From: Bradyrhizobium sp. CCBAU 53338
Lineage (GTDB): Bacteria > Pseudomonadota > Alphaproteobacteria > Rhizobiales > Xanthobacteraceae
Assembly (NCBI RefSeq): GCF_015291665.1
Contig: NZ_CP030048.1
Span: 6,793,501 to 6,857,500 of the forward strand
Direction of reading: 5' to 3'
DNA length: 64,000 nt
The notes below the pieces were generated by a model, which did no database searches, was not told where the DNA came from, and saw nothing but the letters and a program-made list of their open reading frames with translations. Positions 4,211 to 24,766 of this stretch are shown in pieces; position 1 is the first letter of the stretch, and every line of letters starts with the position of its first letter. The position numbers were made by a program, and so were the translations under genes.

Positions 4211-6366
4211 GCGATAAGCCTTCCCTTTTCGGCGATAGACATGCGCTGCATAGCTGCGCCGAGCTGATCGCGTGTCACCGGTTTTGTGACGAAGTCGTTC
4301 ATGCCTGCAGCCAGACAGGCGAGCTCATCCTGGCGCGTGGCATTAGCCGTCAACGCGATGATGTGAACGTCGCGGGCAGGAGGCGGCAGCTGGCGGATCG
4401 CACGAGCTGCGGCGAGCCCATCCATGCCCGGCATCATCATGTCCATGAATACGAGGTCGTAAGCGTTCTCCTGCAGGGCAGCCACCGCTTTCAGGCCGTT
4501 GTCGACGAGATCTGGCTTCACGCCCATTCTCTCGAGGAGCTTACGGATCACGAATTGATTGGTGAGATTGTCTTCGGCAACCAGCACACGAAGCGACTCG
4601 ATGTCCGTGGTGCTTGCCGAGCACCCACAATCTGATCGGACGGCCGAGGCCGCCTCGACATCGTTGGCGGCCGCGACCTCGACAGAGAACGAGAAGACGC
4701 TTCCCACGCCGGGAACGCTCTGGACCGAGATCTCGCCCTCCATGCAAGTCACGAGGCGCTTGCAGATCGCGAGCCCTAGCCCCGTGCCGCCGAAGCGACG
4801 CGAGATCGAACTATCGAGTTGCGAGAACTCACGGAACAATAGTCCGATCGCGTCCTCGGGAATCCCAACACCGGTATCACGAACGCTGAATGTCAACTTT
4901 GACCGCCCCTTACCTAAGGGGTCCGAGTGCACCATCACTTCAACCCCGCCGGCTTCGGTGAACTTGATGGCGTTCCCAACCAGATTGAACAGCACCTGCC
5001 GAATACGCGCTGGGTCGCCCACAATCATGGGTGGCACCAATTCGTCGATCGTGCAGGTCAGGCGGAGCCCCTTTTCCTTGGCGCGCAAGGCCAGCAGATC
5101 CACAACCGCGGAAACAGACTTGCGAACGTCAAACTCGATCCGTTCCAGCTCAAGCCGATCGGCATCAAGCTTGGAGAAGTCGAGGACGTCGTTGAGAATC
5201 TGCAGCAGATAGTCAGCCGAATCCCGCAAGGTCGACGCGATCTGCTTCTGGTCACGATCCAGACAGCTGGACAGCAGGATGTCCGCCATGCCGATGACGC
5301 CGTTCATGGGCGTACGAATTTCGTGGCTCATCATGGCCAGAAATTCGGACCGCGCGCGCGAACCGGCTTCCGCAGCGTCACGAGATTTCGCAAGACCGGC
5401 CTGGTAGCGCATGATCAGGATAGTGACGAGACAGATCACCAAGCTCAGCACGCAGCCAGCGATGACGTCCTTGTCGCGCTCACGACGGTAATTCAGGAAG
5501 ATTTCGGCCGTCGCCTGACCGATCACGACGGCGAGCGGATATCCGTCGACCTTGCGGAACGACAACAACCGCTCGACCCCGTCAGCTCGGCTGCTTCCGA
5601 CATACGAGCCGCTTGGACGCTGCGCGAGAAGACCCAGCAACGGCCCTCCGCTGATCGACAAGCCGATAGCGGATGGCCCGCCCGCGCCGCGGGCACGCAC
5701 GATGCCATCGAGACCAACAAGAGATGCCGAGCCGTCTTTCCCGATATCGATCGAGTTGTAGAAGCGGGATAGATAGTCCGGATCAAGCGAGACGACGACG
5801 ACACCGTCGAAGCTACCATCTTTCGCGGTGATCCGGCGGGTCAGTTGGATCGACCATTTATTCGAAACCCGCCCGAAGATCGGCTTGCTGATGAACAGGA
5901 AATCCTCCCGGCCCTCGGCATGAACGCGGAAGTGCTCCCGATCGTGCAAATCCAGTCCTTTGAGGCCGGGATCGATGTTGCTGGTGCGCATGATCCCGTT
6001 CTTGTCGATCAGGACGACCTGGAACGAAAAATCAGTCAAAAATTGGCTGTTCTTGGTCCACAGCGAAAAATCAAAATTCTCCGGATCCCGCTCGTAAGAA
6101 TCTCTGACATAGAGGAGAGTTTGGTCAGCAGCGCGGATCGAGCGAATGATCTGCTCCTCGAAGGCGCGCGCTAGGTTCGAGCCATTCTGCAGGGCAGCAC
6201 GCTCGGTACGCGATCGATCTGCGTCCATGTTGTAAAGGATTCCCAACCAGACGAGCGCAATTGCGGCGACGCCGGAGAGCGCACTGCCATAGCGCCCGAC
6301 TTGCCGCCCGAACTGCTCGAGTGCCTTGAAGTACAAGCGTTGTGCTGTCGGATTTGCGTTCGGCAT
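4207..6366 (-). CDS. membrane hybrid sensor histidine kinase
   Basis: A 719-residue kinase. One membrane segment lies near residues 25-45. A periplasmic sensory region of about 250 residues follows, with Cache-like features ([44 protein letters not shown]). A second membrane segment covers about 301-321. HisKA contains His348 in [10 protein letters not shown]. The HATPase_c domain has N, G1 and G2 boxes ([25 protein letters not shown]). The C-terminal receiver has Asp642 in [11 protein letters not shown]. It should sense a periplasmic small molecule and feed the Hpt/EAL pair. A strong AAGGAGGAG ribosome-binding site precedes the ATG. The ligand is not evident. Confidence 0.93.
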
Positions 6367-8814: not shown

Positions 8815-9618
8815 TCAGGCGATGGCCGCGATGTATCGCTTCACCGACGCCGCGAAAGCAGCCTTTGCGCCCGAGGCGATGTTGCGGCCCCACCAGGCGC
8901 CATAGATGCGGTCGAAGGCTAGCGGCTCGACCGCCTCTGCGATCCGCCGCACCGCTGCGGCGTTGAGCGGCATGTAGTTCGGATAGGAGTACATGAAGCT
9001 GAGGAAGCGGCGGTCCATCGTCACTTGGGCGATATCGCCGGTGAGCAGTGCGCCCCTGCCTTCGGCGCCTCGCGCGTGGTGCAGCATGGTTGCGCCTGCG
9101 AAATGGCCCCCGGTGCGGAGCAGCAGGACATCGCCCGAGATGCGATGCTGATCGCCGGTCCAGTGCACGATCGACGGATGCGGATGCGTCACCCATTGGC
9201 GATCGTCGGCATGAAGATAGACCGGCACGCCGCCAAACGCCTCGCTCCAGTCGGCGAGGGCGCCATAATAATGCGGATGCGAGATCGCGATCGCTGTCAG
9301 GCCGCCAAGCGATTTGACATGCGCGATCGCCTGCGCCGTTGCCAGCGGAATGCAGTCCCACATCACGAATCCCCCGCCATCGGGAACCAGCAGTGCGCGC
9401 TGGCCGATCGCGAAGCTCGGCTCGAGCGCGATGCCGGTGAGGCCGAGATCGTTGCGCCAGATGAGACTGTGGCGCTCGGCCAGTGTCTCGCGGCTCAGGA
9501 ACGTCTGCCCTTTCCAGTTCACATATTGCCGCTCGTCTTCGCAGATCGGACAGGATGCAGGCGGTTTTCCACTGTCCGGGAATTGCGCGCCGCAGGTTTC
9601 GCAGGTCCAGAGAGGCAT
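8815..9618 (-). CDS. zinc-ribbon MBL-fold metallo-hydrolase
   Basis: The ATG at 9618 is chosen over an upstream in-frame start at 9768 because the protein then begins MPLWTCETCGAQFP, a rubredoxin-like ribbon with Cys6, Cys9, Cys23 and Cys26. This gives 267 residues. The rest resembles the metallo-beta-lactamase fold (SHPHYYGALADW, RTGGHFAGATMLHH, LLTGDIAQV). The usual HxHxDH metal motif is replaced by HPHYYG, so metal binding may be reduced or atypical. A cytoplasmic hydrolase or a redox/metal-sensing variant is possible. It is divergent from the MFS gene at 9801. Confidence 0.75.
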   Translation of the reverse strand: MPLWTCETCGAQFPDSGKPPASCPICEDERQYVNWKGQTFLSRETLAERHSLIWRNDLGLTGIALEPSFAIGQRALLVPDGGGFVMWDCIPLATAQAIAHVKSLGGLTAIAISHPHYYGALADWSEAFGGVPVYLHADDRQWVTHPHPSIVHWTGDQHRISGDVLLLRTGGHFAGATMLHHARGAEGRGALLTGDIAQVTMDRRFLSFMYSYPNYMPLNAAAVRRIAEAVEPLAFDRIYGAWWGRNIASGAKAAFAASVKRYIAAIA

Positions 9619-12033: not shown

Positions 12034-13647
12034 TCAGGTGCCAAAGCTTTTCTGGACCGCCTTGTCGAGCGTCTCGCCGCCCACGAATCGCTGGCGCAGC
12101 TCGCGCTTGAGCAGCTTGCCGCTCGGGTTCTTCGGCAGGCTATCCACAAAGATCACGCGCTTGGGCACCTTGAAATGCGCCATCTGGCCGGCGCAGTGCC
12201 GGATGACGGCGTCTTCGTCCAGCTTTTCGCCGGTCTTCACCACGACAATCGCGGTCACTGCCTCGATCCAGCGCGGATCGGGCAGGCCGACGACGGCGAC
12301 TTCGGAGACCTCGGGGATGCGATACACCATCTCCTCGACTTCGCGGCTGGCGACATTCTCGCCGCCGGTCTTGATCATGTCCTTGACGCGATCGACCACC
12401 GTGATGTGGCCTTCGTCATCGACGGTGGCGAGGTCGCCGGAATGAAACCAGCCGCCGGTGAACGCGGCCGCAGTCTTGACGGGATCGTTGTAGTAGCCGG
12501 ACAGCAGATGCGGGGAGCGATGCACGATCTCGCCGACCTCGCCCACGTTCACATCCTCCATCGACGTATTGACCACGCGCGTCTCGACATTGAGCACGGG
12601 CTTGCCGGCCGAGCCGGCCTTGCGGAGCTGGTCTTCGGGGCGGAGCACGGTGGCGAGCGGCGCGATCTCGGTCTGGCCGTAGAAATTCCAGAATTTGACG
12701 TTCGGCAGGCGACGCTGCAATTCGAGCAGCACCTCCACCGGCATGATCGAGGCGCCGTAATAACCCTTTTGCAGGGTCGACAGGTCAGTCTTGTCGAAAT
12801 TCGGCGAGCGCAACATCGCAATCCAGATCGTCGGCGGTGCGAAGAACGAGGTGATCTTGTGCGCCTGGATCAGCGCCAGAATGTTGTCCGCAGTCGGCTT
12901 GCCCGTGATCACGCCGGAGGCGCCGAGATAAACTTGCGGCCCCAGGAACACATCGAGCTGGGCGCAGTGATAGAGCGGCAGCGCGTGCAGGAACTTGTCG
13001 TCGACGCTCATGCCGCCGTCGATGATGCAGCTGACATACTGCCACATCACCGCTTCGTGCGTCAGCATGGCGCCCTTGGGCAGCGATTCCGTCCCGCTGG
13101 TATAGACGATCTGCGCGAGATCGCGGCTGTCGACGGAGGCCTCGAGGAACGAACCGTCGGGGTTGAGGAGATCATCAAACGTTGTGAGACCCGCGGGCGC
13201 CGCGACCAGATCCTCGCCGGGCAGCCAGATCATCTTCTCGACCGCGCAATCTTTTGCGCTTGCGGCCCTCGCGGGATCGACGAAGTCGGGCCCAGTCGCG
13301 AGCAGCTTTGCGCCGGAACTCTTCAGGATGAAACTGATCTCGTCCGGGTTGAGCATGAAGTTGATCGGCACCAGCACGGCGCCGATCCGCGCCGCCGCGA
13401 AACGCAGCGCCGCAAAGGCGTGCGAATTGCGCGAGAGCACTGCGAGGCGATCGCCCTTCTTGACACCAAGGCTCAGCAGCCCGCGGCCAAGACGGTTACA
13501 GATTGCATCCATCTCGGCAAAGGTCCAGCTCACATGGCCGCAGCTCACCGCAAGCTTGTTCGGATCGCGGCCAGCCGAGCGGCGCAAGAGATCGCCGATG
13601 GAATGCTCGCGCGCTTTCGAAATGGTGGCTGCGATATCGCCGGTCAT
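12034..13647 (-). CDS. AMP-forming acyl-CoA synthetase
   Basis: A 537-residue member of the ANL superfamily, normal length. The adenylation signature is VYTSGTESLPKGAMLTH (the common TTG is TES here). The A5-like motif is FYGQTEIAP. The hinge region is SGDLATVDDEGHITVVDRVKDMIKTGG. The catalytic lysine lies in NPSGKLLKREL near the C terminus. It would activate a carboxylic acid to its CoA thioester with ATP. It is the first gene of a two-gene unit with the MDR oxidoreductase. The GntR gene lies upstream on the same strand, and an imperfect GntR-type site sits about 26-36 nt before the start codon. Confidence 0.92.
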   Translation of the reverse strand: MTGDIAATISKAREHSIGDLLRRSAGRDPNKLAVSCGHVSWTFAEMDAICNRLGRGLLSLGVKKGDRLAVLSRNSHAFAALRFAAARIGAVLVPINFMLNPDEISFILKSSGAKLLATGPDFVDPARAASAKDCAVEKMIWLPGEDLVAAPAGLTTFDDLLNPDGSFLEASVDSRDLAQIVYTSGTESLPKGAMLTHEAVMWQYVSCIIDGGMSVDDKFLHALPLYHCAQLDVFLGPQVYLGASGVITGKPTADNILALIQAHKITSFFAPPTIWIAMLRSPNFDKTDLSTLQKGYYGASIMPVEVLLELQRRLPNVKFWNFYGQTEIAPLATVLRPEDQLRKAGSAGKPVLNVETRVVNTSMEDVNVGEVGEIVHRSPHLLSGYYNDPVKTAAAFTGGWFHSGDLATVDDEGHITVVDRVKDMIKTGGENVASREVEEMVYRIPEVSEVAVVGLPDPRWIEAVTAIVVVKTGEKLDEDAVIRHCAGQMAHFKVPKRVIFVDSLPKNPSGKLLKRELRQRFVGGETLDKAVQKSFGT

Positions 13648-13672
13648 GTGTCCCTCCGTGTAATGGCTTTGT

Positions 13673-13683
13673 TTGTCCGATTT
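13673..13683 (-). promoter_or_regulatory. imperfect GntR-type operator half-site
   Basis: TTGTCCGATTT shares the first eight bases with TTGTCCGACAA found upstream of the GntR gene. It lies 26-36 nt upstream of the acyl-CoA synthetase start, a good place for a repressor site. The right half has decayed, so this is a weaker call than the two complete sites. Confidence 0.4.
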
Positions 13684-13715
13684 CTTGTTCGAAATCTTGC
13701 GTCTTGTGCCTCTAG

Positions 13716-13762
13716 CGCATGATCTTGTCGGAAAACCGCTTCACACTTTTCCGGATCATGCG
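13716..13762. repeat. rhizobial palindromic intergenic repeat (GCATGATC type)
   Basis: Interrupted palindrome with outer arms CGCATGATC (13716-13724) and GATCATGCG (13754-13762), and inner arms CGGAAAA (13729-13735) and TTTTCCG (13747-13753). From memory, closely similar elements are scattered through Bradyrhizobium and relatives in intergenic DNA. It abuts the 3' end of the GntR gene and could form a strong hairpin in transcripts from either strand. Confidence 0.75.
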
Positions 13763-13765
13763 GCG

Positions 13766-14533
13766 CTACCTGCGCCGGGCCGCCCGCGCGTGCTCCATGT
13801 ACATGTGTTCAACCGATCGATCGAGCGAGGCGATCTTCTCGAACCCGCGGCGCCAGTCCTGCAAATGCCGGCGCGTCCACAGCACGCCCGTCTCACGGTC
13901 GCGGCGACGAATCGCATCGATGAGATGCCGGTGCGCCGCGACGAGACGCGGGCCGCCTTCGGAGACGCCCGTCACGATCATCTCGGTGGTCGGATAGAAC
14001 AGCTGCGCGGCCGGCTCGCGCGCGAGCTGGAGCACGCGGTTCTGCGAGGCCTTTGCGACCAGCACGTGGAATTCGGCGTCGCATTCGGCAAGCGCCGCGG
14101 GATCGCCGACCACCGCCTCGCTGCGCGCGAGATTGTCGATGAGCTCGGCGAGATTCTCCTCGCTCGCGCACTCGACCGCGCCCTCGATGCTGGCGACCTC
14201 CAGCGTCATCGAGGCCTCGTAGAGCTCGCGAAACGTGACCTCGTGCAACACCAGCGCTCGACTGAGGCGGCTCGTCAGCTTGCTGTAGCGCGGCAGGCAG
14301 GCGTGCAGACGGCGCGAGGAATCGCGGCTGATCAGCCCGCCCTCCTCCAGCACGCGGATGCCCTCGCGAATGGTCGAACGATTGACGCCGAACTGCCGCA
14401 CCAGATCGTGCTCGGTGCCAATGGGATCGCCGGGCTTGATACGGCCATTGACGATCTCACGTTCGATTGCGTCGGCGACCTTCTGATAGGCCGGCGCGAC
14501 ATCGATCGGACGGAAGAGCGGCGAGATGGGCAC
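13766..14533 (-). CDS. GntR/FadR-family transcriptional regulator
   Basis: A 255-residue protein. The N-terminal winged HTH (about residues 10-80) includes PIGTEHDLVRQFGVNRSTIREGIRVLEEGGLI, typical of GntR. A helical FCD-like effector domain follows (AECDAEFHVLVAKASQN, then HRHLIDAIRRRD), where Asp/His residues usually bind a metal and a carboxylate. Two perfect TTGTCNGACAA palindromes lie upstream of its start, and an imperfect one precedes the acyl-CoA synthetase. It is therefore probably an autoregulated repressor of the acyl-CoA synthetase/MDR pair, relieved by a carboxylate or acyl-CoA ligand. Confidence 0.9.
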   Translation of the reverse strand: MPISPLFRPIDVAPAYQKVADAIEREIVNGRIKPGDPIGTEHDLVRQFGVNRSTIREGIRVLEEGGLISRDSSRRLHACLPRYSKLTSRLSRALVLHEVTFRELYEASMTLEVASIEGAVECASEENLAELIDNLARSEAVVGDPAALAECDAEFHVLVAKASQNRVLQLAREPAAQLFYPTTEMIVTGVSEGGPRLVAAHRHLIDAIRRRDRETGVLWTRRHLQDWRRGFEKIASLDRSVEHMYMEHARAARRR

Positions 14534-14813: not shown

Positions 14814-15758
14814 CTAGCGCCGCCGCAGGTCCGACGGGCTATGCCCGAACTTCTTGCGAAACACGGTGCTGAAGTAGGACGAGCTGCTGAAACCCAGCTG
14901 ATAGGCAACCTCGGTGATCGACAGGGATCGCAACTCGGAACGGGTCAAGACGTCGTAACAACGCTGAAGCCGGCGATCCAAGATCCATTCGGACACCGAG
15001 ACATCAGTGAGCCGGAAGAGATAGTGCAGATGCCTGAGCGAGACGCCATTGCTCTTCGCGATCCTTTCCAGCGACAGATCCGCGTCGGTGAGGTGCGCCT
15101 CGATCCAGGCTTTGACCGAGCGCAGACGGGCCTGCTGCGCGGCCGCGTCCTCGGAGAATTCGTCCCGGTCGCCCATGTCGAGCGCAAGTGCCAGCACGTC
15201 CATCAGTTCACCGCCGAGCCGCGTCCGTGCGTTCTCGTCGAGCGATGCGCCTTCCTGCGCAAGGGTCGCACAGAACTCCGCGGCGATCCGGCCCAGGCCG
15301 CGGCTCGTCGTCATAGCGGTGATGACAGGCAGCCGCCCATCGCTGAAGCGCTCCGCGAACTCCGCGCGGGGAATTTCCAGGTAGAGCGAACGTACCTTGC
15401 CAATGCATTCGAGGTCATAGGCCTCGGAGGCCGAAAAGACCGTGCTCATTCCGGCGTTCGAACGCATGGTCTGGCCGGCCTGAAGAACGTTGATCCTGCC
15501 TTGCTGAACGAATTCGAGGTAGTAGCAATCCTTGTCGAGCTTTGCGATGTGCCGCTCGCGCCGAGATATGCGCTGCTCCGACAGCAGCACATCGGTCATT
15601 GTGATCGCGCCGAACTTCGCCTCGCGTATGAAGCCCTGGTAGTCGGACCGCCCTTCGGCATTGACGTCAACATGAACGTAGACGTCGCAAATGGCGCCTT
15701 GCCAAGCGGCAAAACGTTTGGACGGCTCAAGGTCGTCCGTCGAAAATATCAGGTCCAT
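14814..15758 (-). CDS. AraC-family transcriptional regulator
   Basis: The start at 15758 (MDLIFSTDDLEPSKRFAAWQ) is preferred over a longer frame, because this is where conserved AraC_binding_2-type sequence begins. This gives 314 residues. The N-terminal part is the sensory domain (YYLEFVQQGRINVLQAGQ). The C-terminal 100 residues hold two HTH motifs: DLSLERIAKSNGVSLRHLHYLF and ITEVAYQLGFSSSSYFSTVF, followed by KKFGHSPSDLRRR. It is divergent from the ligase/ABC importer operon starting at 16030, so it is the best candidate for its activator. Confidence 0.9.
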   Translation of the reverse strand: MDLIFSTDDLEPSKRFAAWQGAICDVYVHVDVNAEGRSDYQGFIREAKFGAITMTDVLLSEQRISRRERHIAKLDKDCYYLEFVQQGRINVLQAGQTMRSNAGMSTVFSASEAYDLECIGKVRSLYLEIPRAEFAERFSDGRLPVITAMTTSRGLGRIAAEFCATLAQEGASLDENARTRLGGELMDVLALALDMGDRDEFSEDAAAQQARLRSVKAWIEAHLTDADLSLERIAKSNGVSLRHLHYLFRLTDVSVSEWILDRRLQRCYDVLTRSELRSLSITEVAYQLGFSSSSYFSTVFRKKFGHSPSDLRRR

Positions 15759-16029
15759 CGCGCGCCCATCCGTTACGAGGCCATGATGATGAACGTCGTT
15801 TGTGCGTCGCACAAGCCGGCCCGGCGGCGAAATTCTGGATGGCCACCGCCTGCACGCAAGACGGGTTTGCGCGGACAAGCAAAAGCTTTGCGCTCCAGAG
15901 CAAGCCGGGTCCAGGCATGTCGCCTATGAAGAACAAAAATCGGTCACCGAGATAGGCGGGAAACGTTCGCTTGCACCAGGACAGATCAGCTGCCGCACAT
16001 TGCGCCGTGCCGCTTGAACGGCGGCGTCC

Positions 16030-17919
16030 GTGAGCGCGCCCTCGCTGATCACAACGCGGTTCACGCAGCCGATCAAAACCATCGCCGACATCGAGGCGCT
16101 GGAACAGCGGCCTTACGACTCGCTCATCCCGGCCCGCAATCTGCATGATCTCTTTGCCGCCACGGCGCGCCTGCATCCCGACCGGCCTGCGCTGACGGTC
16201 CTGACCAAAGGCTCGCGCGAACCCGGCGACATCACGCTTACGCATCGGCAGTTGATCGCGGAAATCATACGTGCGGCGAACCTGTTCCGATCACACGGCA
16301 TCGACAGGAACGGCGGCACGGTCGCGTTTCTCTGTCCGATCCTGCCGCAGCTCTTCCCGGCCTTGCTCGGCGCCCAGATCGCCGGCGTCGCCAGCTCGAT
16401 CAACTATCTCCTGAACGAAGATGCCATTGCGGATCTGCTCGACGCGCAGAACGCAACCGTTCTGGTCGTCGCCTCGGAAGCAGCCGATCGCGCGATCTGG
16501 ACGAGGGCGGCCAATGTCGCGAGTCGCGTCCCGTCGCTGAAGACGATTTTCGTGATCGGCGCGAATGGCCGCCTGACCGGCGGCGCCGTGAGCTTCGATG
16601 AGGCGGTCGCGACGATGCGCGATACGCTGGACTTCGAGACCTCGCGGGATCGCGACACGGTCTGCGCACTGTTCCACACCGGCGGGACCACCGGACGGCC
16701 CAAACTCGTTCGCCTGACGCATGGCAACCAGATCCATGCCGCCTGGGCCTTTGCACAGGTTCACGGACTGGATGAGCAGGATGCCGCCATCAACGGCTTC
16801 CCGCTGTTTCACGTCGGCGGCACCATGACGGTGGGCCTGTCCATCTTGGCGGCTGGCGGCCACGTGATCATTCCGTCGCCCTACAGCCTCAGAAGTCCGG
16901 ATGCGATCCGCGACTATTGGCATACGGTAGAGCGGTTTGGCGCGACCATTGTCAGCGGAGTGCCGACCTCGATCGCCGCCCTTGCGGAGGTGCCGATCGG
17001 ATCCTCCGATGTCAGCTCCGTCCGCATGGCCCTCACCGGAGGGGCCGTGGCGCCGAAGGCCGTCAGCGAGAGGTTCCAGGCCCGGACCGGGATCAGACTG
17101 TTCGAGACCTACGGCATGACGGAAACCGCGGCGGCGATCGCGTTCAATCCCGGCCGCGGCGCGCCCGTGCAAGGCAGCGTCGGCTTCAGGGCGCCGTTTG
17201 CAAACACGAAGATCGTCGCGCTAACCGATGCGACCCTCGAGACGGAATGCCCGCCGCTCACCAGCGGCCTCGTCCTTGTCAGTGGACCGCAAGTGTTTCC
17301 CGGATATCTTGATCCCCGGCACAACAAGGGCGTGCTCACTGACGACCGTTGGATCGTCACAGGCGACGTTGGCTACCTCACGGCCGATCGACGGCTGGTG
17401 CTAACCGGCCGCGAGAAAGACCTGATCGTCCGCAGCGGCCACAACATCGACCCCGCCGCCATCGAGGATGTCGCGAATGCTTTCCCCGGTGTCCAGATGA
17501 GCTCAGCCGTCGGCATGCCGGACGCCTACGCGGGCGAGGTACCTATTCTCTTCGTCGTTCCGTCTCCCGGAAAAACCATCGACCTGCCGCAGCTGCGCGA
17601 GCACCTCGAACGTAACGTCAATGAGCCTCCCGCCAGACCAAAACGCGTCGTCCTGCTCGAAGCACTCCCCGTCACCGCGGTCGGCAAGATCTTCAAGCCC
17701 ACGCTGCGGGACCTCGCCGTTCGAGAGAAGGTCAGGACCGAGATCGATCTCATCTTCGGCCCGGACACCGTTGCTGAGATTCTCGTCGACAAAGACGCCA
17801 GGTTAAATACGCTGGTCACCATCTCGATCGATTCCAACGACAGGGACCGGGTGCAGGCACTTACGGAAAGCCTGGCTTCGCTCCCACAGACCTATCGCAT
17901 AGAGACTCGATCGTCATAA
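16030..17919 (+). CDS. AMP-forming acyl/aryl-CoA synthetase, first gene of ABC importer operon
   Basis: A 629-residue ANL-superfamily ligase starting at GTG (MSAPSLITTRF). The core A3 motif is LFHTGGTTGRPKLVRLTH. The A5 motif is ETYGMTETAAAI. The hinge is TGDVGYLTADRRLVLTGREKDLI. The catalytic-lysine region is TAVGKIFKPTLRDL. About 70 residues follow, more than in most family members. It would activate a carboxylate to a CoA thioester in the cytoplasm. The stop is 41 nt from the first permease start, so it is probably cotranscribed with the importer. That is unusual and suggests that the imported compound, or its hydrolysis product, is a carboxylic acid. Confidence 0.88.
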   Translation: MSAPSLITTRFTQPIKTIADIEALEQRPYDSLIPARNLHDLFAATARLHPDRPALTVLTKGSREPGDITLTHRQLIAEIIRAANLFRSHGIDRNGGTVAFLCPILPQLFPALLGAQIAGVASSINYLLNEDAIADLLDAQNATVLVVASEAADRAIWTRAANVASRVPSLKTIFVIGANGRLTGGAVSFDEAVATMRDTLDFETSRDRDTVCALFHTGGTTGRPKLVRLTHGNQIHAAWAFAQVHGLDEQDAAINGFPLFHVGGTMTVGLSILAAGGHVIIPSPYSLRSPDAIRDYWHTVERFGATIVSGVPTSIAALAEVPIGSSDVSSVRMALTGGAVAPKAVSERFQARTGIRLFETYGMTETAAAIAFNPGRGAPVQGSVGFRAPFANTKIVALTDATLETECPPLTSGLVLVSGPQVFPGYLDPRHNKGVLTDDRWIVTGDVGYLTADRRLVLTGREKDLIVRSGHNIDPAAIEDVANAFPGVQMSSAVGMPDAYAGEVPILFVVPSPGKTIDLPQLREHLERNVNEPPARPKRVVLLEALPVTAVGKIFKPTLRDLAVREKVRTEIDLIFGPDTVAEILVDKDARLNTLVTISIDSNDRDRVQALTESLASLPQTYRIETRSS

Positions 17920-17960
17920 CGGACCCGCAGAGGCCGGCGTCGAAGAAAGGCAATCAGGGG

Positions 17961-18932
17961 ATGAAGCGCTTTCGGTTCAATCAGCAAGAGATCGTCTTCG
18001 CCGTCTTTGCGTTGCTGTTCCTCGTCTTCTCGATCTTCCTGAATGGCTTTCTGACGGCCGAGAACATGCTGACGCTGCTCCAGAACGTGGCCGTGCTCGG
18101 CATCCTCGGCCTCGCAATGGCGATCGTCGTGATCGGCCGTGGCATCGACATCTCGCTGATCGCGGCCCTCGCGGTGCCCCCAGGACTGGTGCTTCAGATG
18201 GTGCAGAACGGCCATTCGCTGCCGTTCTCGTTGTTGATTGCGGTTCTGCTCACGATCGCCTTCGGCCTCGTCAATGGCTGGCTGATCGCCTATGCCGAGG
18301 TGCCATCGCTGTTTGCGACGCTCGCAACCGGCCTGTTGCTCGCTGGACTCGGACAGGCCGCACTGTTCGAACTCGACGTCGTGCAATGGAGCGCGGGCAT
18401 GAACGGCTTCGAGCGACTTGGACAGGGCACCATTCTCGGCATTCCGACCTCGATCGTGATGTTCGCGATCGCCTGCATCGTGGTCGCATTCCTGCTGCGC
18501 CAGACCCGCTGGGGCGCCTATATCTATGCGATCGGCGATAATCCCTACGCCGCGCGCGTCACCGGCATTCCGTCACGGCCGATCGTCGTGCTGCAATACG
18601 TGGTCGCCGCCTTGATCGGCTGCTTCGCAGGTCTCGTGATGGCCGCATCGGTCAATTCGATGCCGACCCGTGTCTTCAACTCCACGCTGATCTACGACGT
18701 GATCCTGGTGGTCGTGCTGGGCGGCATCGGGCTGTCAGGTGGGCGCGGCGGTGTGCTGAACGTCATCATCGGCACGCTGCTGATCGGCACCATGCTCAAC
18801 GGCATGACCATCATGGACATCTCCTACGCCGGGCAAAATCTCATCAAGGGCGTGGTTTTGCTGCTCGCAGTCATCACGGACTCCTTCCTGAATCCGCGCA
18901 ACGAAGAAACGGCACAGCAAGGCGACATCTGA
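17961..18932 (+). CDS. sugar-type ABC transporter permease (RbsC-like)
   Basis: A 323-residue membrane protein with about nine to ten hydrophobic segments and the BPD_transp_2 pattern: LGLAMAIVVIGRGIDISLI, then YIYAIGDNPYAARVTGIPSRPI and VVVLGGIGLSGGRGGV. It should form half of the inner membrane channel, with the permease domain at 20056 as the other half. It lies between the ligase and the binding-protein gene. Members of this group import ribose, other sugars, polyols or autoinducer-like molecules, so the family alone does not fix the substrate. Confidence 0.92.
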   Translation: MKRFRFNQQEIVFAVFALLFLVFSIFLNGFLTAENMLTLLQNVAVLGILGLAMAIVVIGRGIDISLIAALAVPPGLVLQMVQNGHSLPFSLLIAVLLTIAFGLVNGWLIAYAEVPSLFATLATGLLLAGLGQAALFELDVVQWSAGMNGFERLGQGTILGIPTSIVMFAIACIVVAFLLRQTRWGAYIYAIGDNPYAARVTGIPSRPIVVLQYVVAALIGCFAGLVMAASVNSMPTRVFNSTLIYDVILVVVLGGIGLSGGRGGVLNVIIGTLLIGTMLNGMTIMDISYAGQNLIKGVVLLLAVITDSFLNPRNEETAQQGDI

Positions 18933-18972
18933 ACGACCGACAACAACGACGACGACAACCAAGGAGGAAGCA

Positions 18973-19980
18973 ATGAACAATCCGACAAAGGCAATGCTCG
19001 CCGCACTGGCTCTCGCGGCACTGACGGGACCGGCGCCGGCCCAGCAGGGCCTGGACGAACCGTTCCAGAAGCCGTTCAAGGAAGCCCTCGCCGGCAAGAC
19101 CGTGGCCTACGTGCCGGTCGCGATGAACTTCGACCTCACCGAGGGCTGGTACGCCGGGCTGAAGAAGGAACTCGAGCCGTTCGGCGTCAAGTTCGTGATC
19201 CGCGATGCCAATTGGAACACCAATGCGGGCGCGCAAGCCGTCACGTCGCTGATCTCCGAGAAACCGGCGGTGATGGTGGTCCATAATCCCGACGTGCAAA
19301 CCTACGCAAAGCTGCTCCAGCGCGCCGAGAACGAGGGCATCTACGTCATCCAGATCAACATGGGTTCGGCCTATCGCAGCTCCGCCTTCGTCGGCGCCAA
19401 CTGGATCGAGATCGGCGAGCGGGATACCGAAGCCGTGGTCAAGGCTTGCGAGGGCAAGTCGAACAAGATCGCGATCGTTCAGGGTGCGCTCTCGGCCGCG
19501 GCCAGCGCCTACACGCTGAAGGGTGTCGAGAACGTTCTCGCCAAGCATCCCGAAGTCAAGGTGGTGTCGAGCCAGGCCGCCGACTGGGATGCTGCGAAAG
19601 CCAAGGCGATCACGCAAACGGTGCTGAAGCAGAATCCAGACCTGTGCGGCATCGTCGGATTCTGGGACGGCATGGACATCGGCACGGCGGCCGCGGTGAA
19701 GGAAGCGGGCCTCACCGGCAAGGTGTTCCTGGCGACTTCGGGTGGCGGTGAACGCAAAGGCGCCTGCGAACTGGTGAAATCAGGCGCGTTCGACCTCAAC
19801 CTGAGCTACGACGTGCCGACCCAGGCCGCGCAGATGGCCGGTACGATCAAGTGGTTGCTGTCGTCGGGCGCGAAGCCCGGCTCGATCAAGGGCTCGGAAT
19901 ATACCACGTTGATCCCGATCACCAAGGAGAACGCTGACAGCCAGATGTCGTGCTGGAATCTCAGTGATCTCAAGAAATAG
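18973..19980 (+). CDS. periplasmic sugar-type ABC substrate-binding protein
   Basis: A 335-residue Peripla_BP_4-like binding protein preceded by an AAGGAGGAAG ribosome-binding site. A signal peptide covers about residues 1-23 (LAALALAALTGPAPAQ). The mature part shows the two-lobe type I fold (GKTVAYVPVAMNFDLTEGWY, KPAVMVVHNPDVQTYAKLL, CGIVGFWDGMDIGTAAAVK). It captures the substrate for the two permease domains. A perfect 13-bp hairpin follows directly and may keep this cistron at higher abundance than the membrane components. Confidence 0.92.
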   Translation: MNNPTKAMLAALALAALTGPAPAQQGLDEPFQKPFKEALAGKTVAYVPVAMNFDLTEGWYAGLKKELEPFGVKFVIRDANWNTNAGAQAVTSLISEKPAVMVVHNPDVQTYAKLLQRAENEGIYVIQINMGSAYRSSAFVGANWIEIGERDTEAVVKACEGKSNKIAIVQGALSAAASAYTLKGVENVLAKHPEVKVVSSQAADWDAAKAKAITQTVLKQNPDLCGIVGFWDGMDIGTAAAVKEAGLTGKVFLATSGGGERKGACELVKSGAFDLNLSYDVPTQAAQMAGTIKWLLSSGAKPGSIKGSEYTTLIPITKENADSQMSCWNLSDLKK

Positions 19981-19994
19981 TCCGCGCTGACGCC

Positions 19995-20027
19995 CGAGAT
20001 CCCCGGGATCAATACCCGGGGATCTCG
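19995..20027 (+). terminator. strong intercistronic hairpin (attenuator or mRNA stabiliser)
   Basis: CGAGATCCCCGGG at 19995-20007, loop ATCAATA, CCCGGGGATCTCG at 20015-20027: 13 perfect base pairs. It starts 14 nt after the binding-protein stop and 29 nt before the next start. There is no long T run after it, so partial termination or protection of the upstream mRNA from 3' decay is likelier than complete termination. Such hairpins are known after binding-protein genes in ABC operons. Confidence 0.7.
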
Positions 20028-20055
20028 CTCTCAATAGTTTCCATGCCTCATTGGA

Positions 20056-22179
20056 ATGCCGATGCGCGACACAATCACAAGCCTGCGTTACCGCTACTGG
20101 CCTGATCATCTCCTCGGCGAAATCCTCTCCAAGCGATGGACCGAGACAGCCATTCCGGTCATCCTTCTCCTGATCGTCGGCTTCGCGTTCAGCCGGTCCA
20201 TCGACAACTTCCTGTCGCCGGCGAGCCTCGCGGACACCGCGCGCCAGGCCGGCGAGATCGGCTTCATCGCGCTCGGGCTCGCACTGGTCGTCATCGTCGG
20301 CGGCATCGATCTCTCGGTCGGATCGATCTTCGCACTGACCGATTTCTGCGCCCTCTATCTGCTCGACGTCGCGGGCTGGCCCGTTCCCGCAGTCGTGGTC
20401 GCGACACTGCTCTGTGGCGCCCTGCTCGGCGCCGTCAACGGCATCCTGGTCGGATATCTGCGGCTACGCGCCTTCATCACCACGCTGATCACGCTGATCA
20501 TCTACCGTTCGGCCTACGATCTCCTGATCCAGCGCTACTCCAACGCCATCGCCTCGGCCTTCCCCGACATCCCGTCCTGGGATTTCATCGGCGCCGGTTC
20601 TGTCCTGGGCATTCCGACCGTGGCGCTGGCCTATATCGTTGTCGCCATCTTCGGTCACATCTTCATGACGCGCTTGCGGCCCGGCTGGCACATCACCGCC
20701 ATCGGCGGCTCGCGCCGCTCGGCTTACAACTCTGGCATTCCCGTCCGCCGCACGATCGCGCTCTGCTATGTCGCAAGCGGCGCGCTGACCAGCGTCGGCG
20801 CATTGTTCTTCGCGTCCCGGCTCGGCACCGTCGGCGGCGACATCGGTGTCGGCCTGGAGGTGATCGTGCTGACCGCGACAGTGCTTGGGGGTATCACGCT
20901 CGGCGGCGGCAAGGGCTCGGTCGCCAAATCGGCCGTCGGCGTTCTGATCGTGCTCCTGATTACCAACGGCCTCACCACCATGAACGCGCGCGGCGGCGTC
21001 AACCGCATGGCGCTGGCCGGCATCCTGCTCGTCGCCGCGATGGTCGACATCCGCTGGCAGAAGAACCGGACCCGCATCATCAGCAAGGTCTACGTCGCGC
21101 CGACCTACCACGAGTTGCCGCCGCCACCGCCGACCGAGATCGGACAAGGCGGACCGTTCGAGCAGAACGACAAGCTGCGTGACGTCGAGGCGATCGGGCT
21201 CGGCCGCATCGAGGCACCGGAGGACGTCATCCTCGATCGTCACGACAATCTCTACGCCGGCTCACGCCACGGCGACATCATGCGCTTCCTCGCGCCCGAC
21301 TACCAAAAGATGGAAGTGTTCGCCCATATCGGCGGCCAGCCGCTCGGCATGGCCTTCGACCGCGAGGATAATCTCTATGTCTGCATCGGCGGCATGGGGC
21401 TCTATCGTATCAAGCCCGACGGCACGGTGGAGAAGGCAACCGACGAGACCAACCGCAGCATGCGCTCAGTCAACGACGATAGTCGCTTGCGCCTCGCCGA
21501 CGACCTCGACATCACCGACGACGGCCTGATCTTCTTCTCGGAAGCGACGGTGCGTTACGAGATGGACGAGTGGCCGATCGACGGCCTGGAAGCGCGCGGC
21601 AACGGCCGCATCATCTCGTACGACACCAAGACCGGCACCACACGCACCGAACTGCGCGGCCTCAAATTTCCCAACGGCATCTGCGTCGCCAGCGACGGTC
21701 AGTCGATCCTGTTCGCCGAAACCTTCGGCTGCTCGATCAAGCGCTATTGGTTCGCAGGCGCCAAGAAGGGTGCGGTCGAGGTGGTGATGGACAATCTGCC
21801 TGGATACCCCGACAACATCAACCTCGCCTCCGACGGCAATTACTGGCTGGCGCTGGTCGGCATGCGCAGCCCCTCGCTCGACCTCGCCTGGAAGATGCCG
21901 GGCTTCCGTCGCCGCATGGCCAAGCGCGTGCCGGTCGACGAATGGCTGTTCCCCAACATCAACACCGGCTGCGTGGTCAAGTTCAACGAGCAGGGCAAGA
22001 TCGTCGAGTCGTTCTGGGACCTGCACGGCGAGAACCATCCGATGATCACCTCGATGCGCGAGCATCGCGGCTATCTCTATCTCGGCGGCATCCTCAACAA
22101 CCGCATCGGTCGCTACAAGCTCGACAAGGCCGATCCGAACTTCGTCCAGTATGACAAGCGGTGGGGGAAGCAATCGTGA
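20056..22179 (+). CDS. ABC permease fused to SMP-30/strictosidine-synthase-like propeller
   Basis: A 707-residue fusion. Residues 1-335 are a complete RbsC-like permease (GGIDLSVGS at 82-90, VLGGITLGGGKGS near 277-288). The last membrane helix, at about 317-333, is followed by RWQKNRTR, which by the positive-inside rule puts the C terminus in the cytoplasm. A Pro-rich linker (PPPPP at 355-359) leads to a beta-propeller of about 320 residues with repeated strands EAPEDVILDRHDNLY, QPLGMAFDREDNLYV, LADDLDITDDGLIFFSEA, LKFPNGICVASDGQS and LPGYPDNINLASDGNYW. These resemble SMP-30/gluconolactonase and strictosidine-synthase-like proteins, often lactonases or esterases. There is no stop or frameshift at the junction. 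Confidence 0.88.
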   Translation: MPMRDTITSLRYRYWPDHLLGEILSKRWTETAIPVILLLIVGFAFSRSIDNFLSPASLADTARQAGEIGFIALGLALVVIVGGIDLSVGSIFALTDFCALYLLDVAGWPVPAVVVATLLCGALLGAVNGILVGYLRLRAFITTLITLIIYRSAYDLLIQRYSNAIASAFPDIPSWDFIGAGSVLGIPTVALAYIVVAIFGHIFMTRLRPGWHITAIGGSRRSAYNSGIPVRRTIALCYVASGALTSVGALFFASRLGTVGGDIGVGLEVIVLTATVLGGITLGGGKGSVAKSAVGVLIVLLITNGLTTMNARGGVNRMALAGILLVAAMVDIRWQKNRTRIISKVYVAPTYHELPPPPPTEIGQGGPFEQNDKLRDVEAIGLGRIEAPEDVILDRHDNLYAGSRHGDIMRFLAPDYQKMEVFAHIGGQPLGMAFDREDNLYVCIGGMGLYRIKPDGTVEKATDETNRSMRSVNDDSRLRLADDLDITDDGLIFFSEATVRYEMDEWPIDGLEARGNGRIISYDTKTGTTRTELRGLKFPNGICVASDGQSILFAETFGCSIKRYWFAGAKKGAVEVVMDNLPGYPDNINLASDGNYWLALVGMRSPSLDLAWKMPGFRRRMAKRVPVDEWLFPNINTGCVVKFNEQGKIVESFWDLHGENHPMITSMREHRGYLYLGGILNNRIGRYKLDKADPNFVQYDKRWGKQS

Positions 22180-23273
22180 TCGCGGCCGTCAGAGACTTCG
22201 CCAACCGTTTCCTCGGGCGCGGCGACGCCACCATCACCGTGCCGTCCTTCGACGGCGCATTGAAGCCCAACCAGAAGCTGGAATCGGCCGAGACCTTGAT
22301 GACATGCGAGGCACCGGAAGATATCGCGACGGATGGAAGCAACCTCTTCATCGCCGACGGCCAGCGGCTGATGTGCCTGCGCGGCGGCTCGGCATCGGAG
22401 GTGCGTCGCTTCGAACAGCCGATATCAGCTCTTTGTGCCCTTCCTGGCGGCGGCCTCGTCGTCGCGCTCGGCGGTCGCGAGGTGCGCGTTTATGCAAGTC
22501 CATCAGCCGAGCAGCCGGGCGTGACGTTCACCGATGCGGCCTTCAAAGCGATCAACGCGTTGGCGCTGGCGGACGACAACACGCTGATTGCAACCGACGG
22601 CTCGACGACGTCAGGCGTCGACGATTGGGCCCGAGACCTGTTGGAGCTCAATCGCACGGGCCGCGTGTTCAGACTGGACCCGGCCACCAAGACCGTGACG
22701 CGCTTGGCTCAGGGGCTCGGCTATGCTTTCGGCGCCTGCGCGCATGGCAACGCCGTGCTGGTCAGCGAGAGCTGGCGCCATCGCCTCGTTCTCGTTGCAT
22801 CAGGCGCATCGCCAAAGGTCGTGCTTGCCCATCTCCCCGTCTATCCGTCGCGATTGTCGAAGGCCTCTCGGGGCGGCTACTGGCTCACCGCCTTCACCGC
22901 ACGGACCCAGCTCGTCGAGTTTGTGCTGCGCGAGCCGGGCTACCGGCGCCGCATGATGGCCGAGATCGATCCGGCCTATTGGGTCGCGCCGCGCCTGCGC
23001 TCCGGACGCTCCTTCAAGGAGCCGATGCAGGGCGCGCATATCAAGACCATGGGCGTCATCAAGCCGTGGGCGCCACCGCGCTCCTACGGTCTCGTCATCC
23101 GTCTCGATGCGGACGGCCAGCCGCTCTATTCGCTGCACAGCCGGGTGGACGGCGTCAATCACGGTATCGTTGCGGCGATCGAGATGGACGATGATCTCGT
23201 GCTGATCGCAAAGGGACCGGGCCGGATCCTGAAGCTGCCGCTTGCTGGCCTCGCCAAGGAGTTTCGGACATGA
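22176..23273 (+). CDS. SMP-30/strictosidine-synthase-like beta-propeller protein
   Basis: The GTG at 22176 is chosen because it overlaps the upstream stop as GTGA and follows GGGGGAAG at a normal distance. An in-frame GTG at 22161 is the alternative. This gives 365 residues. Propeller repeats resemble those in the fusion protein just upstream: EAPEDIATDGSNLFIADG, INALALADDNTLIATDG, LAQGLGYAFGACAHGNAVLV, LPVYPSRLSKASRGGYWLTAF. There is no signal peptide, so it is probably cytoplasmic. It looks like a divergent paralogue of the fused domain, perhaps a lactonase/esterase working next to the importer. Catalytic metal ligands cannot be assigned with certainty. Confidence 0.8.
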   Translation: MIAAVRDFANRFLGRGDATITVPSFDGALKPNQKLESAETLMTCEAPEDIATDGSNLFIADGQRLMCLRGGSASEVRRFEQPISALCALPGGGLVVALGGREVRVYASPSAEQPGVTFTDAAFKAINALALADDNTLIATDGSTTSGVDDWARDLLELNRTGRVFRLDPATKTVTRLAQGLGYAFGACAHGNAVLVSESWRHRLVLVASGASPKVVLAHLPVYPSRLSKASRGGYWLTAFTARTQLVEFVLREPGYRRRMMAEIDPAYWVAPRLRSGRSFKEPMQGAHIKTMGVIKPWAPPRSYGLVIRLDADGQPLYSLHSRVDGVNHGIVAAIEMDDDLVLIAKGPGRILKLPLAGLAKEFRT

Positions 23274-24766
23274 GCGACATCGCCCTCTCGCTGCGCAAGG
23301 CGACAAAGCTCTATGCCGGTGTGCCCGCTATCGACGGTGTCGACTTCGATCTCCGCCGCGGCGAGATCCACGCACTGGTCGGCGAGAACGGAGCCGGAAA
23401 GTCCACCCTCACCAAGGTGATGGCGGGCGTGGTGACGCTGACCTCGGGGACCATGACGGTCGACGGCGCCGACGTCGCGCCGAAAACACCGCTGGAGGCG
23501 CGCAATCTCGGCATCGCCATGGTGTTCCAGGAAAACAGTCTGGTCCCGACCATGACGGTCGCGCAAAATCTGTTTCTCGGGCAGGAGAAGTTTTATAACC
23601 GGCTGCGCGGTATCTACATCGCCGCACAGCAATTCCTGCAGTCGCTCAATTTCGACGTCACGCCGACCGCAACCGTCAGCGGCCTCGGCGCGGCCAAGAA
23701 GCAGATGGTGGAAATCGCACGCGCCGTCCTGCACCGCGCCAAGGTCATCATCTTCGACGAGCCGACGGCGTCGCTGACGCCGGAGGAGAAGAAATATTTC
23801 TTCGACCTCGTTCGTGATCTCAAGAAGCGCGGCGTCTCGATCGTGTTCATTTCACATGCGCTGGAAGAAGCGCTGCTACTCGCCGACCGCATCACGGTGC
23901 TGCGAGACGGCAAGCATGTCGTGACCGACGATGTCGCCAAGTTCGATCGAGCCGCGATCGTGCAGGCCATGGTCGGGCGCGACCTTTCCAACACACTCTA
24001 TGGCGCCCGCAAGAGCAGCGTGCGGCCGACCGGCGCGCGGGTGCTGACGGTGCAAAATCTGAAGATGGCGCCGATGGTGAAGAACAACTCGCTGTCAGTA
24101 TTCGCGGGCCAGATCACCGGCGTGTTCGGCCTCGTTGGCGCGGGCCGCACCGAAACGTTCAAGATCGTCGCGGGCGTGCTCAAGCGCGACTTCTTCCATG
24201 GCGGCGAGATCCTGCTGCACGACCAGCCGGTGCGCTATCGTGTGCCGGCGCCCGCGGTGAAGGCCGGCGTCGCCTATGTCACGGAGGACCGCAAGGTCGA
24301 GGGCTTCTTCGAGACGTCCTCGATCGCGCGCAACATCTATCTCGGCCTGCTGTCGAAGTTTCCGCGGGGACGCATGATGCTGTCGCGGCGGGAGACCGAC
24401 GCGGTCGGCAAGACCTGGATCGAGCGGCTGAAGGTTCGCGCCATTAGCGACGACGGCAAGGTCGTCGAGCTCTCTGGCGGCAATCAGCAGAAGGTCGTCA
24501 TCGCCAAATCGCTGGTGCAGGAGCCGGACCTGATCATCTTCGACGAACCGACCCGCGGCGTCGACGTCGGCGCCATCGTCGAAATCCACGAGCTGATCAA
24601 CCGGCTCGCCGATGAGGGCAAGGCGGTCGTAGTCATCTCGTCCTATTTGCCCGAGATCATGGCGCTCTCCGACCGCATCCTGGTCTCGCGCCAGGGCAAG
24701 GTCGTGGAAGAGTTCTCTGCGCTGGAGGCGACGGAGGAGAAGATCATGTACGCGGCGATCCACTAG
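23270..24766 (+). CDS. sugar-type ABC transporter ATP-binding protein (two ABC domains)
   Basis: A 498-residue RbsA-like ATPase with two nucleotide-binding domains. Domain 1 has Walker A GENGAGKST and Walker B VIIFDEPTASLTPEE, with a degenerate signature VSGLGAAKKQMVEIARA. Domain 2 has a degenerate Walker A GLVGAGRTE but a good LSGGNQQKVVIAKSL signature and Walker B LIIFDEPTRGVDVGA. This asymmetry is normal in the family. It overlaps the propeller gene by 4 nt (ATGA). It powers the importer formed by the permeases at 17961 and 20056 and closes the operon, meeting the DUF2059 gene tail to tail. Confidence 0.93.
   Translation: MSDIALSLRKATKLYAGVPAIDGVDFDLRRGEIHALVGENGAGKSTLTKVMAGVVTLTSGTMTVDGADVAPKTPLEARNLGIAMVFQENSLVPTMTVAQNLFLGQEKFYNRLRGIYIAAQQFLQSLNFDVTPTATVSGLGAAKKQMVEIARAVLHRAKVIIFDEPTASLTPEEKKYFFDLVRDLKKRGVSIVFISHALEEALLLADRITVLRDGKHVVTDDVAKFDRAAIVQAMVGRDLSNTLYGARKSSVRPTGARVLTVQNLKMAPMVKNNSLSVFAGQITGVFGLVGAGRTETFKIVAGVLKRDFFHGGEILLHDQPVRYRVPAPAVKAGVAYVTEDRKVEGFFETSSIARNIYLGLLSKFPRGRMMLSRRETDAVGKTWIERLKVRAISDDGKVVELSGGNQQKVVIAKSLVQEPDLIIFDEPTRGVDVGAIVEIHELINRLADEGKAVVVISSYLPEIMALSDRILVSRQGKVVEEFSALEATEEKIMYAAIH

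Follow-up and report, generated by a model that had tools for sequence, protein, structure and literature searches.

A CUT2-type importer family with a permease fused to a six-bladed propeller, probably a metal-dependent hydrolase

The stretch of DNA considered here is a 64-kb window of the genome of Bradyrhizobium sp. CCBAU 53338 (8.28 Mb in two contigs), which holds a single copy of a gene joining the permease of an ATP-binding cassette (ABC) importer to a beta-propeller. The evidence slightly favors the view that this gene marks a family of CUT2 (RbsABC-like) importers in which a metal-dependent propeller hydrolase is fused to the cytoplasmic end of the permease and feeds a catabolism that differs between clades. 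Positions below refer to the window and residue numbers to the 707-residue fusion.

The fusion and its five-gene core

The importer is encoded on the forward strand. PERM1, a stand-alone permease (Pfam BPD_transp_2; 17961–18932), and a periplasmic solute-binding protein (Pfam Peripla_BP_4; 18973–19980) precede the fusion, whose open frame (20056–22179) is uninterrupted over 707 codons, as the first-pass annotation had stated. Residues 1–335 (20056–21060) form an RbsC-like permease, followed by a linker, proline-rich in the window copy and delimited by spacing across the family (21061–21150), and by the propeller of metal-hydrolase type (21151–22176), which was assigned from Pfam, alignment with PDB sequences, a predicted model and structure comparison over residues 365–707. 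The Pfam domains of the fusion are BPD_transp_2 (58–329), SSL_N (366–411), SGL (429–602) and Str_synth (482–567). The SGL match lies above its cut-off (E 1e-12), but it spans only profile positions 42–203 of 246; none of the NCBIfam lactonase models reached 0.001 against the window proteins. When the permease part was searched against the PDB by sequence, nothing relevant was found. A second propeller, PROP2 (22176–23273), and a two-domain sugar-class ABC ATPase (Pfam; 23270–24766) complete the run. The GTGA and ATGA overlaps reported earlier are present: the GTG start at 22176 overlaps the TGA of the fusion, and the ATG at 23270 overlaps the TGA of PROP2. The listed open reading frame (ORF) of PROP2 begins at an alternative GTG, 22161, whereas the start at 22176 yields 365 residues, the length of 88 of 120 homologues.

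The order permease, binding protein, fusion, second propeller, ATPase is shared by 125 distinct fused loci wherever the contig reaches. PERM1 is found in 123 of them, PROP2 in 124 and the ATPase in 122, with every miss at a contig end, and the expectation that the second propeller accompanies the fusion is thereby borne out. The binding protein was detected by script in 122 loci and additionally in L011, the other misses lying at contig ends; the apparent absence in L011 was dismissed, as the gene was found at 8913 and the script had misread an alternative frame as the start of the fusion. Because 68 of the 125 loci are mostly close relatives, a non-redundant set of 41 members below 80% identity was also used.

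Across 20 genomes, all 33 ATPases with at least 52% identity adjoin a fusion (one of them split in two; places compared by eye), and the next ATPase has 45% identity. By these identities, the fusion-linked ATPases form a clade of their own. At one locus, L140 (G470:C3:622593-624073), the ATPase occupies two abutting frames matching query residues 6–267 and 268–498, which reflects either a frameshift or a tandem ATPase that is naturally divided in two.

A local assembly artefact, which the first-pass annotation had named as a way in which its idea could fail, is ruled out, since the same fusion recurs at 125 distinct loci in many assemblies. The fusion is old and widespread, with loci in Alpha-, Beta- and Gammaproteobacteria, and plasmid records add copies in Paraburkholderia and Pantoea. 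The string of four Pfam domains is identical in all 240 listed protein rows (236 distinct proteins of 704–730 residues), among which the closest relatives of the window protein are from Bradyrhizobium (98–99% identity). Within the genus its distribution is patchy, with a match in 17 of 35 genomes, the window's own excluded. When the propeller alone was used as query against 398 genomes of the phylum, 17 matches with at least 55% identity all lay within frames of 707–840 codons, and 23 matches of at most 40% lay in frames of 354–520 codons. The scan of 297 genomes from the order gave 43 matches with at least 52% identity in frames of 707–858 codons and 11 weaker, stand-alone ones (30–36%); three partial matches (64–65%; frames of 608, 458 and 116 codons) came from two genomes in 750 and 120 contigs. 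In 60 close relatives, all matches (at least 57%) lay in frames of at least 709 codons, except one that begins at contig base 53. Thus, apart from these few partial or contig-end matches, no split orthologue with at least 50% identity was seen in the genome scans.

Several members of the family stand out. One contig carries three fused importers near each other (G959:C25:34755-54485) in a genome with five matches, which suggests duplication and specialization inside one strain. Of the fused members found, L174 diverges most, with about 43% identity across the fusion and a terminal branch of 3.3 in the tree, and it is a useful outgroup for the family. Public annotation already carries the domain string of the fusion, and no description of it was found in the open-access literature, judged by title and the start of the abstract among the best matches. 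As far as seen, the fused proteins are known to databases and apparently uncharacterized.

Predicted metal site and topology of the two propellers

Among solved structures, rice TGW6 is the best relative of the fused propeller by sequence (E 3e-32), ahead of strictosidine synthases and DFPase. The predicted ligands are identified through the TGW6 alignment, along which residues were counted with the chain index and the residue number differing by 28. The calcium-site residues given for TGW6, E59, N167, N226 and N272 (PMC10958001), align with E389, D482, N540 and N587, and TGW6 D271 aligns with D586. The corresponding codons lie at 21220–21222 (E389), 21499–21501 (D482), 21673–21675 (N540) and 21811–21816 (D586-N587). 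Residues E389, D483, D485, N540, D586, N587 and N589 are invariant in all 126 aligned rows and in all 41 non-redundant members. Residue 482 is always Asp or Asn in the 126 rows, and it is Asp in 33 and Asn in eight of the 41.

Metal-ligand-bearing strictosidine-synthase-like proteins of the N6P superfamily are described as having four metal ligands and as predicted hydrolases (PMC4215206). The fused propeller has the six-bladed fold of this superfamily and, in the alignment, all four ligands (E389, D/N482, N540 and D586 with N587); it differs from these proteins in being fused to a transporter. TGW6 is described as having no bound calcium and one acidic site residue, and yet it is called a hydrolase; its authors state that calcium-binding relatives have at least two acidic site residues (PMC10958001). 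Unlike TGW6, the fused propeller has E389 and D586 at its predicted site, joined in most members by D482. A ligand set of like kind is found in PON1, compared through the published residue list (N224, N270, N168, D269 and E53; PMC7766523). In strictosidine synthases the metal ligands are absent; where the fused propeller has N540 and D586, the alignment with 6n5v has Gly and Gly. The earlier strictosidine-synthase/SMP-30 label therefore holds for the fold, whereas the functional group nearest to it is that of the strictosidine-synthase-like proteins with metal ligands and not strictosidine synthase itself.

PROP2 aligns with the fused propeller at an hhalign E of 6e-41 and is its diverged sister. 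The equivalent of D586 is never Asp in the 41 non-redundant loci (Ala in 20, Gly in 14, Ser in seven), and that of N540 is Asn in only six of them, so that PROP2 does not retain the full set of four ligands of the N6P proteins. The two propellers are not equivalent, the metal site being kept by the fused one only. The supposition that both propellers have a metal or catalytic site thus stands for the fused propeller, with its full ligand set, and not for PROP2, where the set is mostly lost.

Both propellers are predicted to be cytoplasmic. Following the last permease helix, residues 333–345 have a median net charge of +5, with a minimum of +3, in all 51 aligned members, in agreement with the positive-inside signal noted earlier; the median is +6 for loop 202–232 and −1 for the loop expected outside. 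PROP2 shows no signal-peptide-like start, its maximum hydropathy of 1.62 (53 members) lying below the binding-protein minimum of 1.71 (n = 123), although the gap is narrow. A periplasmic location of the propellers is disfavored by these charge and hydropathy patterns. The linker has a near-fixed length, with 40–43 residues from Y346 to E389 in all 51 members, and the last permease helix reaches residue 346 in the predicted model.

Clade-specific partners and the nature of the cargo

The first gene of the window's run, as noted earlier, encodes an AMP-forming, PRK07529-like acyl-CoA ligase (16030–17919, forward strand; Pfam AMP-binding, E 2e-60), which scores 573 bits against NCBIfam NF005714, under the cut-off of 632. 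A ligase with at least 56% identity is present in 24 of the 125 loci; in 19 it precedes the importer, and in the other five (L058, L133, L147, L167 and L169) it follows the ATPase. Two of the 24, L017 and L059, hold only remnants. An obligatory role is thereby ruled out: the ligase is a clade-specific partner in two clades, outside the core. The first-pass annotation had made its idea depend on co-conservation of the ligase with the fusion, and this part of the idea falls. On a tree of 54 members, the ligase label (six rows) needs two changes, the label of the AhpD-like CMD family coincides with one fully supported group of 12, and that of degradative HMG-CoA reductase (four rows) fits one change with support of 90/83. 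Over all rows, genes near the core include CMD in 17, HMG-CoA reductase in four and a TetR regulator in 28. The small AhpD-like protein of the CMD (carboxymuconolactone decarboxylase) type occurs in one clade (L125, L126, L128–L130, L139–L146, L152, L160, L172 and L173). Five of these loci have nearby a gene resembling branched-chain aminotransferase (PRK13356 model, as seen at L142).

Four distant hosts carry a degradative HMG-CoA reductase gene 5' of the importer: L162 (8591–9916), L119 (2880–4196), L151 (about 4813–6108) and L166 (about 13203–14459). The enzymes of L162 and L119 score above the TIGR00532 cut-off, and those of L151, L119 and L166 are 74–81% identical to the L162 query. The gene lies directly 5' of PERM1 in L162, L151 and L166, and two genes intervene in L119. 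This arrangement suggests uptake of mevalonate or mevalonolactone at these loci.

Operonic neighbors were compared more broadly by Pfam scans. The fused set consisted of the 41 non-redundant loci, with the window swapped for L162, and gave 73 neighbor proteins from 29 loci; the HMG-CoA reductases at L151 and L162 went undetected by the ORF picker. The controls were 39 ordinary transporters of the class from 20 fusion-bearing genomes, for which 115 of 163 neighbor proteins were scanned; some of the fused loci come from genomes outside these 20. The fused-locus neighbors include LysR regulators (nine of 73), CMD (eight), AMP-binding enzymes (seven), zinc alcohol dehydrogenases (six), enoyl-CoA hydratases (five), and CoA-transferase III, HMG-CoA reductase and FGGY kinases (two each). 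Among the 115 control neighbors, FGGY (six), DeoR (six), xylose-isomerase-like (four) and class II aldolase (three) proteins were found, and no CoA family was among their 25 most common families. With controls set at an upper bound of two for each family and kinship ignored, the difference has a p of 0.004 when the CoA families are pooled and of 0.03 when AMP-binding is taken by itself. In a separate test with queries from the fused loci, CoA genes lay within 8.5 kb in 11 of 32 loci vs. two of 39 controls (p 0.002). Because this test is biased by its queries, the Pfam scans were relied on more. The neighbors of the fused loci thus lean toward acid and CoA metabolism when compared with those of ordinary transporters of the class.

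The binding protein was compared with ribose-binding protein. Trp occupies, in 123 of 123 sequences, a position that is Asn in 2ioy; an Asp-Arg pair is replaced by Asn or Asp followed by Met, Leu or Asn; and a further Asp is replaced by Ser in 93 and by Thr in 17 of the 123. These positions, which we take to be sugar-site residues of ribose-binding protein, would argue in their replaced form against an ordinary sugar as cargo. Based on the neighbors and these residues, the cargo leans toward a compound processed to an organic acid and a CoA thioester, differing by clade, rather than a sugar.

Proposed mechanism, alternatives and related systems

In the proposed mechanism, the binding protein would deliver a small molecule, probably not an ordinary sugar, which the PERM1/fusion channel and the two-domain ATPase would carry into the cell. 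A linker of near-fixed length would hold the fused propeller where the channel opens into the cytoplasm, and there the propeller may hydrolyze the cargo, most probably a hydroxy acid in the form of a lactone or some other ester. PROP2, with its degraded metal site, would most likely serve as a pairing partner, either for the active propeller or on the side of PERM1. The acid so released would then enter clade-specific catabolism, by acyl-CoA ligation in the window and elsewhere by formation of HMG-CoA through the degradative reductase (a few loci) or by an AhpD-like/aminotransferase route. The earlier proposal of lactone hydrolysis followed by CoA activation fits the ligase and HMG-CoA reductase loci in outline, but it is not general. 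More tentatively, and with the balance somewhat against it, these systems could be regarded as widespread, undescribed "processing importers", in which the permease itself bears the enzyme of the first catabolic step, a metal hydrolase, paired with a sister of degraded metal site, so that import is physically coupled to ring opening and a single module serves different downstream pathways by clade (acyl-CoA ligase, HMG-CoA reductase for mevalonate or mevalonolactone, AhpD-like). If true, channel and first catabolic enzyme would form one polypeptide in a natural ABC importer, which would offer a direct system for asking whether an enzyme sited at the exit traps cargo or speeds uptake. It would also give a shared, testable function to proteins that currently bear the labels ribose permease, SMP-30 family or hypothetical protein. 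The four HMG-CoA reductase loci name mevalonate or mevalonolactone as a concrete first candidate substrate.

Several results weigh against a coupled hydrolase. The four ligand positions (E389, D/N482, N540 and D586) are likewise conserved in every one of 12 rows of stand-alone relatives, which represent 11 distinct loci, and 10 of these rows keep the full eight columns that were compared. The ligand set is therefore ancestral, and its invariance is no proof of coupling between catalysis and transport. As TGW6 is called a hydrolase despite its lack of calcium, metal and function may be separable. The fusion model has a predicted local distance difference test (pLDDT) score of 81.2 but a predicted template modeling (pTM) score of 0.60, which makes the relative placement of permease and propeller unreliable. 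In water, mevalonolactone reportedly opens quickly of its own accord (PMC13064465), and consequently an HMG-CoA reductase neighbor would not strictly need a lactonase. As to the neighbors, 12 of the 41 fused loci have no operonic neighbor at all, the difference in FGGY kinases is not significant (2/73 vs. 6/115, p 0.49), and with fused-locus queries CoA genes within 6 kb do not differ significantly either (4/32 vs. 2/39, p 0.40). The neighbor test is weak, since the loci are related.

The propellers may instead form a regulatory or assembly module that senses a cytoplasmic product or docks the ATPase and so gates transport, with the ligands serving structure or sensing. C-terminal regulatory domains gate transport in some other ABC importers. 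This explanation is considered unlikely, as the fused propeller has lost none of its predicted metal ligands in the 126 rows, evolves slowly (median pairwise identity of 59%, vs. 62% for the ATPase and 42% for PROP2), and has listed structural matches that, those of putative function aside, are enzymes or enzyme-derived designs. Another candidate cargo is an acyl or aryl sugar ester of the auxin-glucose or hydroxycinnamoyl-glucose type, which the propeller would split into sugar and acid, the latter to be activated by the ligase. It draws support from the sugar class of the transporter, from TGW6, the closest solved structure, being called a hydrolase of indole-3-acetic acid (IAA)-glucose, and from the many Bradyrhizobium hosts, a soil and plant-associated genus. 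Nevertheless, such an ester is doubtful, because the binding protein lacks the aligned sugar-site residues of ribose-binding protein and the HMG-CoA reductase loci fit mevalonate and not a glucose ester.

With regard to PROP2, a second, metal-independent enzyme resembling strictosidine synthase would make the pair a two-step enzyme rather than an enzyme and a scaffold; its mostly lost ligands would suit such a role, but the fast divergence of PROP2 speaks against it, and it is given a low probability. A neutral fusion, finally, would make the propeller a detoxifying or housekeeping hydrolase uncoupled from transport. Chance can fix fusions, and a Cu/Zn superoxide dismutase fused to a propeller lactonase has been reported (PMC12362111). 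However, a single fused architecture is kept across many genera, and split orthologues are missing from the scans at the identity threshold and with the exceptions given above, which leaves this the most improbable of the explanations.

The system is closest in kind to CUT2/RbsABC importers, with which it shares a Peripla_BP_4 binding protein, BPD_transp_2 permeases and a two-domain ATPase, encoded together; its NCBIfam relatives are of Rbs, Ara, Xyl and Als type, all under their cut-offs. It differs in having two unlike permeases, one of them fused to a propeller, an extra propeller gene, the separate ATPase clade and the replaced sugar-site residues of the binding protein. The hydrolases and lactonases PON1, DFPase, Drp35 and RPA3624, unlike the present protein, are not transporter fusions. 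Group translocation by the phosphotransferase system (PTS) and vectorial acylation of FadD type are ways of trapping imported cargo. The likeness to them is that a chemical change at entry would hold the cargo inside; here the proposed change would be hydrolysis and transport would be ATP-driven, the coupling being conjectural.

Two further features lie upstream of the run. An AraC-family regulator (AraC_binding_2 and HTH_18 in Pfam; 14814–15788, reverse strand; start codon uncertain) is divergent from it. This gene is clade-specific, with a relative near the core in 32 of the 125 loci, and in all six ligase rows of the 54-row tree and L131. At 12034–14533, on the minus strand, a second AMP-binding-ligase-like frame (537 residues) and a GntR-like frame were named by eye. 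The 537-residue frame is syntenic in many Bradyrhizobium loci and, when the importer operon lacks a ligase of its own, often lies directly next to the importer.

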